From Aestuariibaculum sp. M13 (GTDB lineage Bacteria > Bacteroidota > Bacteroidia > Flavobacteriales > Flavobacteriaceae): DNA of 64,000 nucleotides. A program made the translations under genes and the position numbers. The notes beneath the pieces are model-generated. The model worked only from the letters and a program-made list of their open reading frames with translations. It searched no databases and had not been told where the DNA came from. Location: assembly GCF_024723255.1 (NCBI RefSeq), contig NZ_JANIAC010000001.1:697548-761547 (forward strand), in the 5' to 3' direction. Positions 54,376-62,771 of this stretch are shown here, one piece after another; position 1 is the stretch's first letter, and every line of letters starts with the position of its first letter.

Positions 54376-55188
54376 ATGCCCTTAAGAATTCAATATATCC
54401 TTTTTTTCTCTTTCTTATTTATTGCTTGTAGCACCGGAAAACTAACTGTTGTAGCCGATATTCCTAACGAATTAAAAGAAGTTTCAGGAAACGAAATTAC
54501 CACCAATTCCGATTTAATCTGGGTGATTGAAGACGCTGGAAACCGCAACAATGTATATGGCTTAAACGACAAAGGTTACATTGTAAAAGACATCGACATT
54601 AAAAATGCCAATAACATGGATTGGGAAGATTTAACGACCGACAATGAAGGAAATCTGTATATTGGCGATATTGGAAACAACGATAAAAACCGAAAATGGT
54701 TGAGTATCTTAAAAATATCTAATCCGGAAATAATTGAAGACGAAACCACGGCTGAAGTGATAAAGTTTAAACTTCCTAAAGGCGAAAGTCCAAAAGACTT
54801 TGAAGCTATGTTTTTGTACAAAGATTTCTTCTATTTATTTAGTAAAGAACCGGGAAAAGCTATTCTAATAAAAGTGCCAAACATCATAGGAAAACATACC
54901 GCTGAAATTTTGACCGAATTTAACCTTAACGGAAAAAACAACCAAATCACATCGGCAGACATAAGTGATGATGGCAAAACCGTGGTTTTACTTAACCATG
55001 AAAAAGTCTGGACATTAACCAATTTCACAGACGATAATTTCTTTGGAGGAAAACTAACAAAACTACCTTTTGAACACGATTCTCAAAAAGAAGGCGTTTG
55101 TTTTGAAGACAACGATACTATTCTGATTACCGATGAAAGTAACGACGATTTAGGCAGTAACATTTATAGCTTTGAGCTGAATAAATAA
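54376..55188 (+). CDS. Propeller-like lipoprotein of unknown function
   Basis: This 270-residue protein has a lipobox (FIACS, Cys at about 18) and a repeated beta-propeller-like pattern (LIWVIEDAGNRNNVYGLN, MDWEDLTTDNEGNLYIGDIGNN, KDFEAMFLYKDFFYLFS). It resembles SdiA-regulated / esterase-like propellers common on Bacteroidetes surfaces. No catalytic motif is visible. It stands alone between two minus-strand units. Confidence 0.75.
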   Translation: MPLRIQYILFFSFLFIACSTGKLTVVADIPNELKEVSGNEITTNSDLIWVIEDAGNRNNVYGLNDKGYIVKDIDIKNANNMDWEDLTTDNEGNLYIGDIGNNDKNRKWLSILKISNPEIIEDETTAEVIKFKLPKGESPKDFEAMFLYKDFFYLFSKEPGKAILIKVPNIIGKHTAEILTEFNLNGKNNQITSADISDDGKTVVLLNHEKVWTLTNFTDDNFFGGKLTKLPFEHDSQKEGVCFEDNDTILITDESNDDLGSNIYSFELNK

Positions 55189-55237: not shown

Positions 55238-58200
55238 TTAAAATTTCATCCCAAAACCGAAAGAAAAACGCATACCATCTTCTCCGTTAAACAGATTAAA
55301 TGTTGCCGAAACGGTTTCAGCAGCGGCTACCCAAAAACCACCACCGTAATCGTTATGCCATTTATCTGAATAATCACCACGCAACCAAACACGACCTACA
55401 TCGCCACCTGCAAATACGCCAATTTGCAACGGTACAAATCCGGTTTTAAACGAATTAAAGCTATATCGCAAATCGGCACTACCAATAAACGAATTACGAC
55501 CTGTAAAACGTTGCGTGCGGTAACCTCTAAATCCGTTTTCACCTCCAATGTTGGCTGCCTGATAAAAAATTAAGTCGTCACCAAAACGCAATTGTGTTCT
55601 GGCATCTGTCTTCAACACCCATTTTTTATTTACCGATAGTGCATTATAAAACCCTAAATTTGAATTGATATAACCATAGGTAAAGGTTGATTCCTTAAGT
55701 TCGGTTTTTCCGCCAACTTCAGCTAAAAACGTCATACCTCGCGAAGGGTTTAACTGTTTATCAAAACTGTTGTAACTGTAATTTACTTCCGCTCCTGCGA
55801 AAAAACGTCTTTCGTAAAAATCAAGATTGATGAGTGGCTCAAACTCCGAAATAAATCGGTTAGGTGTATCTTGAATTTCTATGCCTTCAAACATTAATTT
55901 TACTCCAAAAGCACTCCCGTAATTAGTAGTTTTTAACAACCCAATATCGAAACCATAAATTCCGGTTTTCACCCGGTTGTAATCTAAGCCCAATTCGTCA
56001 TCATTATTTTGGGTCTCATTGCCATAACCAAAGAAGTTATTGGTGAAATTTTCACTTGCAAACACACCTCCAACCGCTAAATTCCACTCTCCAAGAACAT
56101 TTGCAAATTGTCCGTTGTAACGAATATCATAACCTTCGGTAGCAAAGTAATACCCTGCTCTAAAACGGTGCTGTGTTGAAAATGGATTCCGCTTAAATCC
56201 TTTAGTAGTTTTTGTAAAGGACACACCTAATTTCATACCATCATCTGGATTATAACCAATACCGGGGGCTATAAAATTGGTTCTGGTAATGCCTTTTTCA
56301 AAATCGAAAAGATTCAGGTTATAAATATCTGTAAAATTTATACCGGCGCCATTATTTTCTTCAATGGTGTTTTTCTTGCTCTTATGGTCGTATATCTTAA
56401 TACGATTTCCGTTTTTTATGATATAGATATCGTTATTTTGTCCGCCAATTAACCGCGTAAAAATAGGATGCTTTCCTTCTCCCGAAACTTCAAATATATC
56501 TTTATCATCCAGACCGTAAATCCAAAGTTCTTTGGTTATATTTCTATCGAAAGTTCTATCGACAAGAACCTCTCCTTTTTTACCATTTTTAATACGAGAT
56601 ATGACCACTTTCGTTTTATAATCTTCAACGCGCTGTACTTCAATATAATCGTCTTTATCAGTTGCTGTTATAACGACTAATTCATTTAAATAGGCATAAT
56701 AGCGACTGGCAATATCTTTAAGATTTCCACGTCTTCCTTTTAATTTGGCTTTGATATCCTGAAGTTGTTCATTTTTCACTTCATCAGGCACATCTTCAAA
56801 AGCTTTTTCTATAACTTCATCAGTAATGTGTTTCTGAAGAAATTCAGCTTGCTGTAACCATAAATCTTCTTTTGCATTCTGAATTAAAACACGATCTAAG
56901 CGAATGCCGGCACTGTTTACCCATTTTATATCTTTCAGTTCGGCATCGTAAACTTGAAGCTGTTTAACCGGGTTACTTATTTTTTTCAAAAGTGTTAATA
57001 ATCCGCCATCAAAATTTGAAAATGCCTGATCGCGATCTCTAGGAATTGGTCTGTATAATTTATCGCCATTTTCCTGATTAAATTGTGCCCAACGCCATTG
57101 GTCCTGATGCCTATCCCAATCGCCTATAAGCATATCGAATAAACGTGCTCTTATGTAAGCTTCTTCATCAATTTTATATTTTTCGTCTTTTCTAATTTTA
57201 GCAATAATATCGTGGGAACTTTCAATATCATCGGCATAACCAAAACTCTCTTTATACGCCTGATTTTCTTCCGGACGTTCTTCAATTAAATACAACTCGT
57301 CACCGTATTCATCGTTAAAATCACCTAAATATTTTTGTTTTGGAATGTAATACAGTTCTGGTTCGGTATGATACACCTTTGCTGCTTTTGAAAGCTCCGG
57401 AATAATTGTAAATGTATAAGGATGAGCTGCAGTATAAAAGTCTAAAATAAGCTCTTCTACTTCGGTTTGCTTAAAATCGTTTTCAATATAAATATCTTTA
57501 AACAAGACGGCTTGTAGATATTGTGTCGCACTCTTTTTAAGAGCACGCATATTAAACTGACGACCGTCTTTGGTTTTTAAACGCAAGGACCGGGTTTGGT
57601 GTCCTCCGCCTTTTCTAACAATTTCCAATCCGCCGTAAAGGGTATCCAAAGTTGCTATGCGCGCCTTGATTTTTGTACTGTATAAATCGCGATAATGGTC
57701 TCCCCAGAAAGTTTTAAACGCTTCAGAACGATTGGTTTCTTCTTCGGTATAAACTGAAACATCAAGTGTTTGCGGAAAATGCTCTTCTAAATCGGACACA
57801 TCGAGTGGTTTGTAATTTGGATACACTTCCTTTTGATACAATAATTGGGCAGTCCCACCTTCTGATGAATAAAATTGCACATGACTACTTCCATCCTTAA
57901 AAACGGTATACACGGCAAAACCCAGTTTTCCGTAAGAGAACAATCCGTCATCGCCTAATGCAGCATAAGACTCTTTTGAACCCGCTCCGGAAATAATTTG
58001 TTTTATATGGTCATGCTCTATGTACTGTAACGTATGCTCATGCCCAGAAACAAATACAATGTTTCCGTTATTTATAGACATGGTTTCTATGCGCTGCATC
58101 AATTGGTTATACCGTTTGTTGTAGCGATCTTGAGGAGAGACTCCTCCCTGTGCTCGTAACTGTACTGCCAAAGACGCCAACCCCGGAAGTGGAATTGGCT

Positions 58201-58945
58201 TTTGAGTTGGAAACAAATGTTTTGCTGCTGTAAATTCACCACCGTGGGCTCCATTTGAGAACATAGGATGGTGCATGGCAATCACTATCGTTTTTCCCTG
58301 TCCCTTTTTGATTTCACCTTCTAACTCATCGAAAAAGAGCGCTTCAGTTTTTATTTCACAATCGTCGTTTATCGTTGGATTTTTATTCCAGTTTTCAAGA
58401 TACCATTGGGTATCTATAATAATTAATTGCACCTTATCGCTAACCTCAATACTTTCCAAAGGACAACCATTTTCTGGCAAGAACGTATTTTTACCTAAGG
58501 CCTTTTCTATATATTTTTCTTCCTCTTTTAATCCTACAAGTCGGTTGGCATACCAATCGTGATTTCCAGGAATAAAAATAGTTTTCCCTAGAAACCCTTC
58601 AACCGCCTGCATCTGAACATTCAAACTTTGTTCGGCTTCTGCTCTTCCCTTTTTATCCTTTTTAGGCATTCCGGCCGGGTAGATATTATCACCTAAAAAA
58701 AGCACATAATCATTCTCTGTTTTTTTCCCTTTTATAAAATTCTGAAAGGCTTTAACAGCTGACGAAGCTTCATTATTATAAACCAATCCACCATCTCCAA
58801 TCAAGTAAAACGTAGTTTCAACCTCTTTCTCAGGAAAAGCCAACTGCGTAGAATCATCACTTTTGTACTGTGCCTTTTTTGTAGCACAGGCTGTTAAAAT
58901 AGCGAAACTCACTAAAAATGAAATGGTTGAAACGTATAACTTCAT
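55238..58945 (-). CDS. Lipoprotein metallophosphoesterase / kinase-like / Omp85 barrel fusion
   Basis: This 1235-residue protein has a lipobox (LTAC, Cys20) and three parts. A calcineurin-type phosphoesterase covers about 44-330 (LIGDGG, FLGDNIYP, GNHDW, HHPMFSNGAHGG, SGHEH). Residues about 430-680 look kinase-like: an N-lobe MRALKK lysine, a hinge-like LYLIEERPEE, a catalytic-loop-like GDWDRHQD (Asp611, His613) and PRDRDQAF (Asp637/Asp639). From about 900 to the end is an Omp85/surface-antigen barrel with GGENGFRGYRTQRF and a C-terminal FSFGFGMKF. The first and last parts are clear; the middle is an inference. It would be outer-membrane anchored with the enzymes in the periplasm or at the surface. 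Confidence 0.8.
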   Translation of the reverse strand: MKLYVSTISFLVSFAILTACATKKAQYKSDDSTQLAFPEKEVETTFYLIGDGGLVYNNEASSAVKAFQNFIKGKKTENDYVLFLGDNIYPAGMPKKDKKGRAEAEQSLNVQMQAVEGFLGKTIFIPGNHDWYANRLVGLKEEEKYIEKALGKNTFLPENGCPLESIEVSDKVQLIIIDTQWYLENWNKNPTINDDCEIKTEALFFDELEGEIKKGQGKTIVIAMHHPMFSNGAHGGEFTAAKHLFPTQKPIPLPGLASLAVQLRAQGGVSPQDRYNKRYNQLMQRIETMSINNGNIVFVSGHEHTLQYIEHDHIKQIISGAGSKESYAALGDDGLFSYGKLGFAVYTVFKDGSSHVQFYSSEGGTAQLLYQKEVYPNYKPLDVSDLEEHFPQTLDVSVYTEEETNRSEAFKTFWGDHYRDLYSTKIKARIATLDTLYGGLEIVRKGGGHQTRSLRLKTKDGRQFNMRALKKSATQYLQAVLFKDIYIENDFKQTEVEELILDFYTAAHPYTFTIIPELSKAAKVYHTEPELYYIPKQKYLGDFNDEYGDELYLIEERPEENQAYKESFGYADDIESSHDIIAKIRKDEKYKIDEEAYIRARLFDMLIGDWDRHQDQWRWAQFNQENGDKLYRPIPRDRDQAFSNFDGGLLTLLKKISNPVKQLQVYDAELKDIKWVNSAGIRLDRVLIQNAKEDLWLQQAEFLQKHITDEVIEKAFEDVPDEVKNEQLQDIKAKLKGRRGNLKDIASRYYAYLNELVVITATDKDDYIEVQRVEDYKTKVVISRIKNGKKGEVLVDRTFDRNITKELWIYGLDDKDIFEVSGEGKHPIFTRLIGGQNNDIYIIKNGNRIKIYDHKSKKNTIEENNGAGINFTDIYNLNLFDFEKGITRTNFIAPGIGYNPDDGMKLGVSFTKTTKGFKRNPFSTQHRFRAGYYFATEGYDIRYNGQFANVLGEWNLAVGGVFASENFTNNFFGYGNETQNNDDELGLDYNRVKTGIYGFDIGLLKTTNYGSAFGVKLMFEGIEIQDTPNRFISEFEPLINLDFYERRFFAGAEVNYSYNSFDKQLNPSRGMTFLAEVGGKTELKESTFTYGYINSNLGFYNALSVNKKWVLKTDARTQLRFGDDLIFYQAANIGGENGFRGYRTQRFTGRNSFIGSADLRYSFNSFKTGFVPLQIGVFAGGDVGRVWLRGDYSDKWHNDYGGGFWVAAAETVSATFNLFNGEDGMRFSFGFGMKF

Positions 58946-59185: not shown

Positions 59186-60373
59186 ATGTCGCAATTAATA
59201 GAAACCACCGAATCGTTTGTTTTTAATTTGTTTAAATCGCAATTAGACCAGACCTTTTTATATCATAACCTTACACATACCGAGCGTGTTTTAAGAAGCC
59301 TAAGAGAAATCATATCAAATTCAGATATTAGTCAGGAAGACGCTGAAATGCTTCAGTTAGCTGCCCTACTTCATGATACAGGTTACATTAATTCCAGAGA
59401 AAATCACGAAGAAGAAAGTGTAAAAATTGCGACCGAATTTTTGAAAGAAAATCAGGTTAATCAGTCTACCATTGAAGCTATTAGTAATTGTATCTTGGCG
59501 ACCAAATTTGAAGGCAACCCAACAACCGAATTAGAAAAAATTATTCGAGATGCCGACTCATCACACTTTGGCAAACCTTATTTTGATGAAGCCAGTGAAT
59601 TTTTAAGGAAAGAACTTGAAATTCAAGGTATAAAAAACTATTCAACTTCAGAATGGTTGGATGAAAACATTAAAGTATTAACTAAAAAACACGAGTTTTA
59701 CACCGATTACGCTTTACAAAATTGGCAAAAACAAAAAGAAGAGAATTTAAGTAAGCTTATTAAGCAAAAGAAAAAATTAAAAGATCAATTAAACAAAGAA
59801 AAGCTTAAAGCCAGATACAAAGCGCAATACAAAAGTGAAAGCCCGGAGCGCGGTATTCAAACCTTTTATCGTGTTGCTTTAAGAAACCATATTAAATTGA
59901 GCGATATTGCCGATACTAAAGCCAACATTCTGCTTTCGGTAAATGCCATTATTATTTCGTTGGTGTTATCTAATCTGTTTTCAAAATTAGATAATCCGAG
60001 TAACGCTTATTTAATTATACCTACCGCCATATTTACAACTTCGAGTGTTATTTCTATGGTTTTATCTATTATCGCGACCCGACCAAATGTAACGCGTGGC
60101 CAATTTTCAAAAGAAGACGTTGCTAACAAAAATGTAAATTTAGCCTTCTTTGGAAACTTTCATAAAATGGAATTAAATGAATTTGAATGGGCAATTACTG
60201 AGCTTTTAAAAGACAAAGATTATCTATACTCTGCCCTAACTAAAGATTTATACTTCTTAGGAAAAGTCCTTGATCGAAAATACCGTATTTTACGTATTAC
60301 CTATTCTTGCTTTATGATAGGTATTATCGTGTCGGTATTAGCTTTCGCTATTTCGTTTAAACTAATGAATTAA
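59186..60373 (+). CDS. HD-domain protein with C-terminal PycTM-like effector domain
   Basis: The 395 residues start with an HD phosphohydrolase domain (about 10-180): His31 in THTERV, His63-Asp64 in LLHDTGY, Asp124 in RDADSSHFG. A Lys-rich coiled coil follows (about 185-215), then a C-terminal region with three membrane helices, starting DTKANILLSVNAIIISLV, as in PycTM effectors of Pycsar antiphage systems. There is no cyclase gene beside it. HD domain hydrolysis of a signalling nucleotide is inferred. The gene is convergent with the GAF protein. Confidence 0.78.
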   Translation: MSQLIETTESFVFNLFKSQLDQTFLYHNLTHTERVLRSLREIISNSDISQEDAEMLQLAALLHDTGYINSRENHEEESVKIATEFLKENQVNQSTIEAISNCILATKFEGNPTTELEKIIRDADSSHFGKPYFDEASEFLRKELEIQGIKNYSTSEWLDENIKVLTKKHEFYTDYALQNWQKQKEENLSKLIKQKKKLKDQLNKEKLKARYKAQYKSESPERGIQTFYRVALRNHIKLSDIADTKANILLSVNAIIISLVLSNLFSKLDNPSNAYLIIPTAIFTTSSVISMVLSIIATRPNVTRGQFSKEDVANKNVNLAFFGNFHKMELNEFEWAITELLKDKDYLYSALTKDLYFLGKVLDRKYRILRITYSCFMIGIIVSVLAFAISFKLMN

Positions 60374-60389: not shown

Positions 60390-62771
60390 CTAGGCCTTGA
60401 TAGTTTTCATTAAATCGTCGTACGAATAAAATTCTTTGGCATTTTCCTCCTGTTGGTATAAGATTCCTACACGAATGGCTTTTACACCGGTAACGCCCTG
60501 TAGGTCTTCCAATTCAACAATTTCAACTTCATTATTTAATAACTTTTTATGCTGAAGGAATTTAATATATTCTAAATATTCTATTTCGTCTGCTTTTTGA
60601 GAGTAGATAATGGTTATTTTACCTTTTTCGGTAACACGTTTTCCCGTACCTTTAATAACGGCTTTATCTACACGCTTTTTAACTACCTCGTAACGTGCAT
60701 TGTAAGTCCCATCAACATCAAACTGTTTTTCGTCCATTCTAAAACTAATGGTTAACGGCTGATTAAACACCAAAATCATGGAAGCAACATCTAACTGCAC
60801 CGGATACTTATGACGGTTTTGGTAATAATCATTCTCCATTTCACACATCACCTGTAACTGCCATAACCTTAAATTATACAGATATATAGTATTAAAACTT
60901 TCTTCTTTGGTAATAGCTTCACCAATGTACATGTTATGCTCTACCCCATCGGTTTTAAAACGTTCGAAGTAATGCGGATACATTTGCTGAGCATCTTTCT
61001 GCTTTTCATCCAGAACAGAAGCCATATTTTTATTGATAAGCGCAATGGTTTTATCGAAATCCTTTCGGTAATGATACACCACGTTTAGATTCGGATCTAT
61101 CTTACTAAAATAATCTTCTATCGTTTCACGATACATCTCCCTTTTAGCCATAAAAAACTTAAACAACGGCTCTATTTCCTGTTTAAGGAAATTAGCTATC
61201 TGCTGTTCGCTATCTACTTTAAAATCTTCATTAAGCTGTTTTCTATAACTATCTATTTGAAATTTTAATTGTCCGTAAATGGGTAGTGTTTCTTCTGCAA
61301 GTACATCATGAATAATACTATTCACCAATGTTAACTGAAGTTCTAAATCACGTTTAGTCGCCAGATTTCTTACTTCTGAAGAGCCTTTAACATCTATTTG
61401 TCCGAATAACGGATACACATTTTGAAAGCTAATTTTACTAAACACAGCATTATTACCAACCTCTTGTTTATCCTTTAAAAACTGACGTGCTGCATTTTCA
61501 AATTTCCAGCTTACACTACTATGAATTGAAGTACATTCCTGCTGAATAACTGCCTCGATTAAATTTTCATATTCACGCTTAGAACGCTTTACAGCCGATA
61601 AAATAAAAGGCATCACATCTACCAGCTTATTCGCATTAACGCTATTTAGAATTTTAGGGGTTTTCGAAACGATCTCTAAAATACCTAACAATTCATTTTT
61701 ATCTGAAATAGGCGCAAAAATAGCACTCTTAATTCCCTGCTCCTTTAGTATTCTAAATTGGGCAACCTTCCCTTTAGACATCTCGTAATACTTGTCGACA
61801 TCTGAAATAGAATATGAGGTATTTTTATTAATTAATGCTTTATAAGAAGCCTCACACAATACCGTTTTACAAGGCGACTCTTCTATATCTTTTAATAAAA
61901 AACTTTCTATACCCTGCTCATGAACACAGTCGAAACTATCATCTGTTTTATTGTAAATCGAAAAACCAACCTGTAAATCCTTAATCCCTAAAAGCGACTG
62001 AAATATAGACTGAAATTCGCCCATATACTGTTTGCTTTCATGTTTACTTTCGGCTATTAAAGTAGATTTCATATTCGATATCGACTGATCATCGGTGACA
62101 TCGAACATGTTCGAAATTACAAAACCTTTAAACAGGTAACTCTTTGGTGGGAACTTCGTTTTCCAAAGTTCAATATCTTTAAAATTATCGATTAACTCAT
62201 TAAAGTCATCCTGAGTAATTTTAGGTGCATTTTCGGTAGGAATAATTTCTATGAAATCGGCATTATACGCAATTTTATAAAAACGCATAATCCCTTCAGC
62301 ATCCGGTATTTCGTATAAAATAGGACGCTTAAAATTTAAATTATACCCGTAACACGCATTTAAAATAACCGCACAAGACATGATATAAATATCATTCTCA
62401 GGCATGTTTTTCATTTTCAACTCAAAACCTTCACCTGCTTCTTCAATTATTTTTTTGAAACGATTTGACGCATTAAACACAACATCCTTAAAAGGCATTG
62501 ATGCTGTTTTAATTTCATTATTGCTTAACACTTCACTAAACGAATCCTGTAAAATAAGTTTAATTTCCTTTTTATAAGTTACAAAATAATCAGGATCGCT
62601 GAAACCATCTCTTAAAATAGGATGCGGTTCCTGTACCTCTAAAACTTTACGGGCTTTTGAAGCAATAAATTCGTCTTCGCTTGTTGCTAAGCGCTCATAA
62701 TGCTCAATAAGTTTATTGAAACTTATTCGCAAATCGAAAGGCGATGGTGTATTTTCGTTGATATCTATCAT
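60390..62771 (-). CDS. GAF-domain protein
   Basis: A 793-residue soluble protein with a GAF domain at about 250-395 (FSIYNKTDDSFDCVHEQGI, IKSAIFAPISDKNELLGILEIVS) flanked by long helical regions that I do not recognise. No kinase, cyclase, GGDEF or HTH domain is visible. GAF domains bind small ligands; the output is unclear. It shares direction with the upstream SelO gene, 30 bases away, so the two may be one unit. Confidence 0.75.
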   Translation of the reverse strand: MIDINENTPSPFDLRISFNKLIEHYERLATSEDEFIASKARKVLEVQEPHPILRDGFSDPDYFVTYKKEIKLILQDSFSEVLSNNEIKTASMPFKDVVFNASNRFKKIIEEAGEGFELKMKNMPENDIYIMSCAVILNACYGYNLNFKRPILYEIPDAEGIMRFYKIAYNADFIEIIPTENAPKITQDDFNELIDNFKDIELWKTKFPPKSYLFKGFVISNMFDVTDDQSISNMKSTLIAESKHESKQYMGEFQSIFQSLLGIKDLQVGFSIYNKTDDSFDCVHEQGIESFLLKDIEESPCKTVLCEASYKALINKNTSYSISDVDKYYEMSKGKVAQFRILKEQGIKSAIFAPISDKNELLGILEIVSKTPKILNSVNANKLVDVMPFILSAVKRSKREYENLIEAVIQQECTSIHSSVSWKFENAARQFLKDKQEVGNNAVFSKISFQNVYPLFGQIDVKGSSEVRNLATKRDLELQLTLVNSIIHDVLAEETLPIYGQLKFQIDSYRKQLNEDFKVDSEQQIANFLKQEIEPLFKFFMAKREMYRETIEDYFSKIDPNLNVVYHYRKDFDKTIALINKNMASVLDEKQKDAQQMYPHYFERFKTDGVEHNMYIGEAITKEESFNTIYLYNLRLWQLQVMCEMENDYYQNRHKYPVQLDVASMILVFNQPLTISFRMDEKQFDVDGTYNARYEVVKKRVDKAVIKGTGKRVTEKGKITIIYSQKADEIEYLEYIKFLQHKKLLNNEVEIVELEDLQGVTGVKAIRVGILYQQEENAKEFYSYDDLMKTIKA

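Follow-up and report, generated by a model that had tools for sequence, protein, structure and literature searches.

Among the closest described relatives of the protein reported here are Omp85 outer-membrane barrels that carry an N-terminal enzyme domain. The protein is encoded in a 64,000-nucleotide stretch of Aestuariibaculum sp. M13 (hereafter the window; RefSeq assembly GCF_024723255.1, contig NZ_JANIAC010000001.1, positions 697,548 to 761,547). Phosphatase-barrel architecture was recorded in 2014 by Heinz and Lithgow as the Metallo subfamily of Omp85, and PF00149 is termed a metalloprotease domain in the relevant passages of that paper (PMC4104836); the Pfam name of PF00149 is calcineurin-like phosphoesterase. 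The group of the window protein is probably this subfamily, with which it shares an N-terminal PF00149 domain followed by an Omp85 barrel. The word kinase is absent from the main text of PMC4104836, and the subfamily section mentions no kinase-fold domain, no kinase-barrel proteins and no split genes. Searches of the open-licence literature of PubMed Central (PMC), judged by titles and the openings of abstracts, gave no account of a kinase domain in an Omp85 protein, and print elsewhere may differ. Another relative is PlpD, in which the enzyme domain is N-terminal to the Omp85 barrel and is placed in the periplasm (passages of PMC11116518). The window protein shares this plan, but the enzyme of PlpD is a patatin, and the window protein has an added lipid anchor and no POTRA domain in its Pfam scan, the beta domain at residues 756-871 not having been searched alone.

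Between phosphatase and barrel, the window protein contains a middle domain with a predicted kinase fold. We consider it probable, at roughly 0.6, that this is an enzyme anchored in the outer membrane whose single polypeptide carries two active sites of opposite effect, one kinase-fold and one phosphatase. The gene and its parts are as follows:

55238..58945, minus strand: whole gene, a lipoprotein of 1235 residues with phosphatase, kinase-fold domain, beta domain and Omp85 barrel
58886..58945, minus strand: signal peptide with lipobox, residues 1-20 (LTAC, Cys20), recognised by eye and by pattern
57806..58840, minus strand: purple-acid-phosphatase-like domain, residues 36-380
56666..57748, minus strand: protein-kinase-like domain, residues 400-760
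57587..57610, minus strand: glycine-rich loop GGGHQTRS, residues 446-453, joining the first two N-lobe strands (strand positions of the model and conservation)
57533..57547, minus strand: N-lobe basic pair Arg467 and Lys471 (RALKK), from conservation
57089..57124, minus strand: catalytic loop GDWDRHQDQWRW, residues 608-619, containing Asp611 (aligned with CotH, HipA and CtkA loops)
57020..57043, minus strand: metal-binding loop PRDRDQAF, residues 635-642, with Asp637 and Asp639 (aligned with CotH PYDYD)
56333..56680, minus strand: beta-rich domain that follows the kinase and precedes the barrel, approximately residues 756-871 (DSSP of the model, model residues 721-836)
55241..56287, minus strand: 16-strand Omp85/TamA-like barrel, residues about 887-1235, GFRGYR at 1138-1143

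A preliminary description of this sequence had named a phosphatase and an Omp85 barrel as the outer domains, and both are borne out. PF00149 scores above the Pfam cut-off and its metal ligands are present, which places the first domain among the purple acid or calcineurin-like phosphoesterases; the barrel resembles TamA and BamA and has the 16 strands of the Omp85 type. We take the phosphatase ligands to be Asp51, Asp86, Asn128, His226, His302 and His304. The motifs cited in that description lie at the residues it gave. The fused gene is present in one copy in its own genome, and the closest named relatives are from Algibacter, Winogradskyella, Psychroserpens and other Flavobacteriaceae, with up to 74% identity in the middle domain.

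The kinase-like domain and its predicted active site

Structure prediction and a fold search, both proposed in the preliminary description, gave a two-lobed kinase fold of the PKL superfamily for the middle domain (predicted local distance difference test, pLDDT, 87), and a non-kinase fold was rejected on the strength of the structure searches. Among solved structures, it is matched best by PI4-kinase II, by CotH, a kinase of spores, and by CtkA of Helicobacter. CtkA, of the HipA type (PF07804), is the top Foldseek match (E 8e-4) and also the top PDB profile match (E 0.063), aligned on the DRH loop, but the window protein differs from it in carrying an export signal. FAM20 secretory kinases are alike in being kinases of an exported compartment, and their structural matches to the window domain are weak (Foldseek E values of 0.034 for 4kqb, 0.093 for 4kqa and 0.11 for 5yh2). 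A single-sequence PDB search of the protein gave nothing useful. In the model and in the aligned domains, the elements follow the PKL order, in which the Gly-rich loop comes first, then the basic residue of the N-lobe, then the loop with the catalytic Asp and last the loop with the metal Asp; the loop of Gly446-448 connects the first two strands, and Arg467 is close to the end of the third.

Conservation was scored over 181 distinct kinase domains, the window's own copy included. The glycine loop is kept at Gly446 (167/181), Gly447 (171/181) and Gly448 (163/181), the basic pair at Arg467 (175/181) and Lys471 (176/181), and Glu555 in 155/181. In the catalytic loop, Asp609, Asp611, His613 and Gln616 are retained in 177, 175, 167 and 169 of the domains, respectively, and in the metal loop Asp637 in 170 and Asp639 in 175. 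The homologue alignment proposed for Asp611, Asp637 and Asp639 thereby came out in their favour, and conservation rules out a chance motif. One duplicate locus (L045) was omitted from one conservation comparison, and the phosphatase comparison used the 143 of 148 rows left after removal of duplicates and of rows with fewer than 200 residues of the compared region. The conservation pattern points to a role for both enzyme parts.

Alignment with the CotH kinases, from which the window protein differs by its fusion to an outer-membrane barrel, pairs the catalytic and DxD loops of the two. In this alignment Asp637 is matched to an Asp that is invariant in the PYDYD loop of CotH, and Asp611 to that of the NWD loop, presumably CotH Asp228. 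Changing CotH Asp228 to Gln inactivated the enzyme, according to passages of PMC7821199. For the CotH and HipA alignments, 3 of 49 loci without a usable frame were dropped, and 22 of 29 CotH and 15 of 17 HipA stretches were used.

No Pfam or NCBIfam family scores above cut-off over the middle domain. For CotH (PF08757), the window protein has no Pfam match up to E 10, and neither HipA_C (PF07804) nor Fam20C is among the Pfam families listed for the window protein or for 33 members of the group. The interpretation given in the preliminary description, with a kinase identity proposed by likeness to FAM20, HipA and CotH, is supported in part. The two-lobed predicted fold and the conserved Asp loops speak for kinase identity; a Pfam match above cut-off to any of these three families is lacking. 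Membership of the HipA toxin-antitoxin systems was likewise rejected for want of a Pfam match to HipA. Separately, the genome itself holds two distinct HipA_C-family genes (G000:C7:321771-322472 and G000:C5:463226-463906) and no CotH match at E 1e-15.

Tandem copies and separate genes

Pairs of fused copies were compared in 17 genomes or loci, and every one of these retains at least one full phosphatase set and at least one full kinase set, as scored at 8 phosphatase and 10 kinase positions (G118, which has a single fused copy, was left out of the 17). In 6 of the 17, the two intact sets are located on different tandem copies (three Aequorivita, Marixanthomonas, Altibacter and UBA3356). In these loci one copy retains the complete kinase set and has lost phosphatase ligands; its partner is intact across the phosphatase set and lacks Gly-loop glycines, His613, Gln616 and Asp637. 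Elsewhere, the second copy has lost phosphatase ligands alone (G103, G226, G130, G234, L085 and L095, that of L085 being cut at the locus end), is damaged at both sites (G166 and G072), or shows kinase-loop changes only, at His613 and Gln616 (G239). In G219 a single glycine of the second copy differs, and the second copy of Mariniflexile is whole.

In a tree of 90 rows, five kinase-dead rows form one clade (SH-like approximate likelihood ratio test, SH-aLRT, 100) and five phosphatase-dead rows another (SH-aLRT 99). Phosphatase decay is seen at about four places in this tree, one of which is a pair, the phosphatase-dead copies of L102 and L095, flagged as long branches that meet. Short rows were dropped from the tree, among them the kinase-dead copy of L093 and L107. 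Since the split pair is maintained across three genera, the pattern argues that both active sites are under selection. Such reciprocal decay in tandem copies would be a natural and directly testable separation of the two functions.

Of 296 genomes sampled across the phylum, 122 contain a match to at least a portion of the protein with an E value no higher than 1e-10. Its relatives occur as full fusions, as kinase-barrel proteins of about 850-960 residues without the phosphatase, as lone kinases and as lone phosphatases. In two genomes of one genus (G251 and G055), kinase, phosphatase and barrel are encoded, in this order, by three consecutive genes on the same strand; the gaps between kinase and phosphatase are 6 and 13 bases, and phosphatase and barrel overlap by 4 bases, as measured from the first start codon of each frame. 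By eye, the N-termini of kinase and phosphatase are lipobox-like, and that of the barrel resembles a signal peptide. In the G251 copy, phosphatase and barrel score above the Pfam cut-off and the kinase has no match. The three-gene form supports the view that the parts may make up one working unit and that the kinase would be exported.

Two loci of other types may be mentioned. At L046:2452-7690 two kinase-barrel genes lie in tandem; the kinase motifs are intact in one and degenerate in the other, and the locus has no homologue of the phosphatase. L240 (G152:C15) has a phosphatase gene standing alone near HD, SixA-like and polyphosphate kinase 1 (PPK1) genes, with the kinase-barrel gene on another contig.

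Proposed activity and rival explanations

In the favoured explanation, the lipid anchor and the Omp85-type barrel would keep the phosphatase-like and kinase-fold domains on the periplasmic side of the outer membrane. A nucleotide or other phosphate donor could be bound by the kinase domain via the Gly-rich loop and Arg467/Lys471, and with Asp611 and the metal-holding Asp637 and Asp639 this domain would phosphorylate a protein or lipid of the envelope. The phosphatase would dephosphorylate that molecule or one linked to it. Catalysis, a shared substrate and the periplasmic side are what we infer here.

The preliminary description had the kinase and phosphatase write and erase a modification of the cell surface. 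Omp85 topology and the PlpD precedent put the enzyme domains in the periplasm instead, and they probably act on the periplasmic side of this membrane rather than on the cell surface. The N-termini of 71 relatives, sorted roughly and with uncurated start codons, comprise 36 lipobox-like, 20 otherwise hydrophobic and 15 of neither type; in some of the 15 the frame is cut or the start wrong. The periplasm is not known to contain ATP (adenosine triphosphate). Kinases outside the cytoplasm pose the question of donor and substrate, and an outer-membrane-fixed bacterial kinase family, if true, would give access to phosphorylation of the envelope across a large phylum. Both enzymes would be hidden by a metalloprotease-Omp85 label, as applied in PMC4104836.

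Several observations weigh against the reading as a two-site enzyme. The sequence link to known kinases is weak: hhalign probability is only 37% to CotH and 14% to HipA, a single Foldseek row lies below E 0.001, and CotH was matched in 2 of the 33 members with a best E of 0.011. The best Pfam E value among those members is 0.0019, for the unrelated family EnY2; in the window protein an EnY2 match at residues 705-733 is below the Pfam cut-off and was ignored. Lys471, Asp611 or Asp637 is missing in 14 of the 181 domains. Compared with the window protein, these degenerate domains have changed at 2-9 of the 10 positions scored in the motifs, and 13 of the 14 have changed at five or more, which is as expected if the motif residues form one site. 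The pair is also not obligatory, as 19 of 40 loci have no phosphatase homologue and kinase-barrel relatives are common. The three-gene form was seen in one genus only, and, given the two clades of the tree, five of the six reciprocal pairs probably go back to one duplication.

The degenerate domains raise the question of a pseudokinase scaffold, the protein then being a phosphatase tethered to the outer membrane. Fam20A is an example of a secretory pseudokinase, an inactive paralogue that activates the active Fam20C (PMC5413348). We regard this as highly improbable, since the core residues are retained in more than 90% of the 181 domains, 12 of the 17 multi-copy genomes or loci hold a copy with phosphatase ligands lost and the kinase set whole, and kinase-barrel proteins without the phosphatase are common. 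Those kinase-only copies, along with the conserved kinase cleft, are also left unexplained if the protein serves phosphate acquisition, with phosphate set free by the phosphatase at the outer membrane and the remaining domains used in transport or sensing tied to polyphosphate storage. This second explanation is improbable as well; PPK1 does occur among the neighbours, as does, at a lower frequency, a SixA-like phosphatase (in 6 of 40 loci), but PPK1 of the genome itself is on another contig.

Other alternatives accept the fold and change the chemistry. SelO has AMPylation activity and SidJ glutamylation activity, and fold and motifs cannot separate such reactions from phosphorylation in a domain outside the Pfam kinase families. 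A transfer of this kind is nevertheless rather unlikely, as CotH, to which the catalytic and DxD loops can be aligned, is a protein kinase. It is also possible, if unlikely, that a lipid kinase and phosphatase act on outer-membrane lipids: PI4-kinase II is the best structural match and its rows hold the top four VIA places of the structure search, in which LepB is listed too. The identity to PI4-kinase type II, a eukaryotic lipid kinase, is 9%. Lipid substrates have been suggested for families clustering with FAM20/CotH and LepB (PMC9758233), and PlpD, with its patatin domain fused to a barrel, is a precedent.

Gene neighbourhood and origin

Two neighbours of the gene recur in related loci:

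54376..55188, plus strand: SdiA-regulated-like lipoprotein (Pfam match here weak, below cut-off)
59186..60373, plus strand: membrane protein with HD domain and PycTM (Pfam HD and PycTM above cut-off)

Homologues of the lipoprotein were found in 70 of 150 and in 12 of 40 fetched loci, which are of unequal length, and the SdiA-regulated family scores above the Pfam cut-off in the two relatives scanned. Linkage was counted in 55 genomes, namely the window's own and 54 of the 122, hand-picked to spread over families. PycTM occurs in 47 of the 55, mostly once in each, and lies within 10 kb of a kinase gene in 36 of the 47 (about 0.4 expected). PPK1 is present in 52 and within 10 kb in 14 (about 0.6 expected); in G118 the kinase concerned is the lone one. 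PycTM links cover 17 family labels and PPK1 links 10. Expected values assume a genome size of about 4 Mb, and, as related genomes are not independent, P values are not to be taken at face value. The SixA-like match, at 60.5 bits, is under the NCBIfam cut-off of 74.5. The neighbourhood thus points to a possible link with phosphate or polyphosphate metabolism.

The favoured explanation could be extended to a dedicated outer-membrane phosphorylation switch of the Bacteroidota. Kinase and opposing phosphatase on one Omp85 barrel would work as homomers or, after duplication, as writer and eraser pairs. The switch would be coupled to polyphosphate metabolism and the PycTM protein, possibly with a non-ATP donor or a regulated periplasmic nucleotide supply. 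We regard this extension as speculative and on the whole unlikely.

PycTM is the membrane domain of Pycsar effectors, known from Pycsar defence. Its recurrence beside the kinase gene and PPK1 suggests a housekeeping role, and PADLOC-type models may possibly make false defence calls on it. In 12 genomes PycTM is within 5 kb of PPK1. The window protein itself was rejected as a known defence protein, PADLOC giving only E 0.002 over about 30 of its residues. A phage origin was rejected as well, as none of the 19 viral_contigs stretches that matched a pattern encodes a relative (tblastn), and so was a plasmid origin, as 5 of 72,556 plasmid records match; these replicons belong to Hymenobacter, Persicobacter and Parabacteroides and are 0.1-1.6 Mb in size.

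At L177:11784-14426, downstream of a fused gene, Pfam identifies a Pycsar-like pair, namely a TPR-repeat nucleotide cyclase and a PycTM protein that lacks the HD domain; similar cyclase starts were noticed by eye in L178, L183 and L186. In the window, a 793-residue protein without a Pfam match at E 0.01 is encoded at 60390-62771 on the minus strand, and its homologues are present in 39 of the 150 fetched loci.
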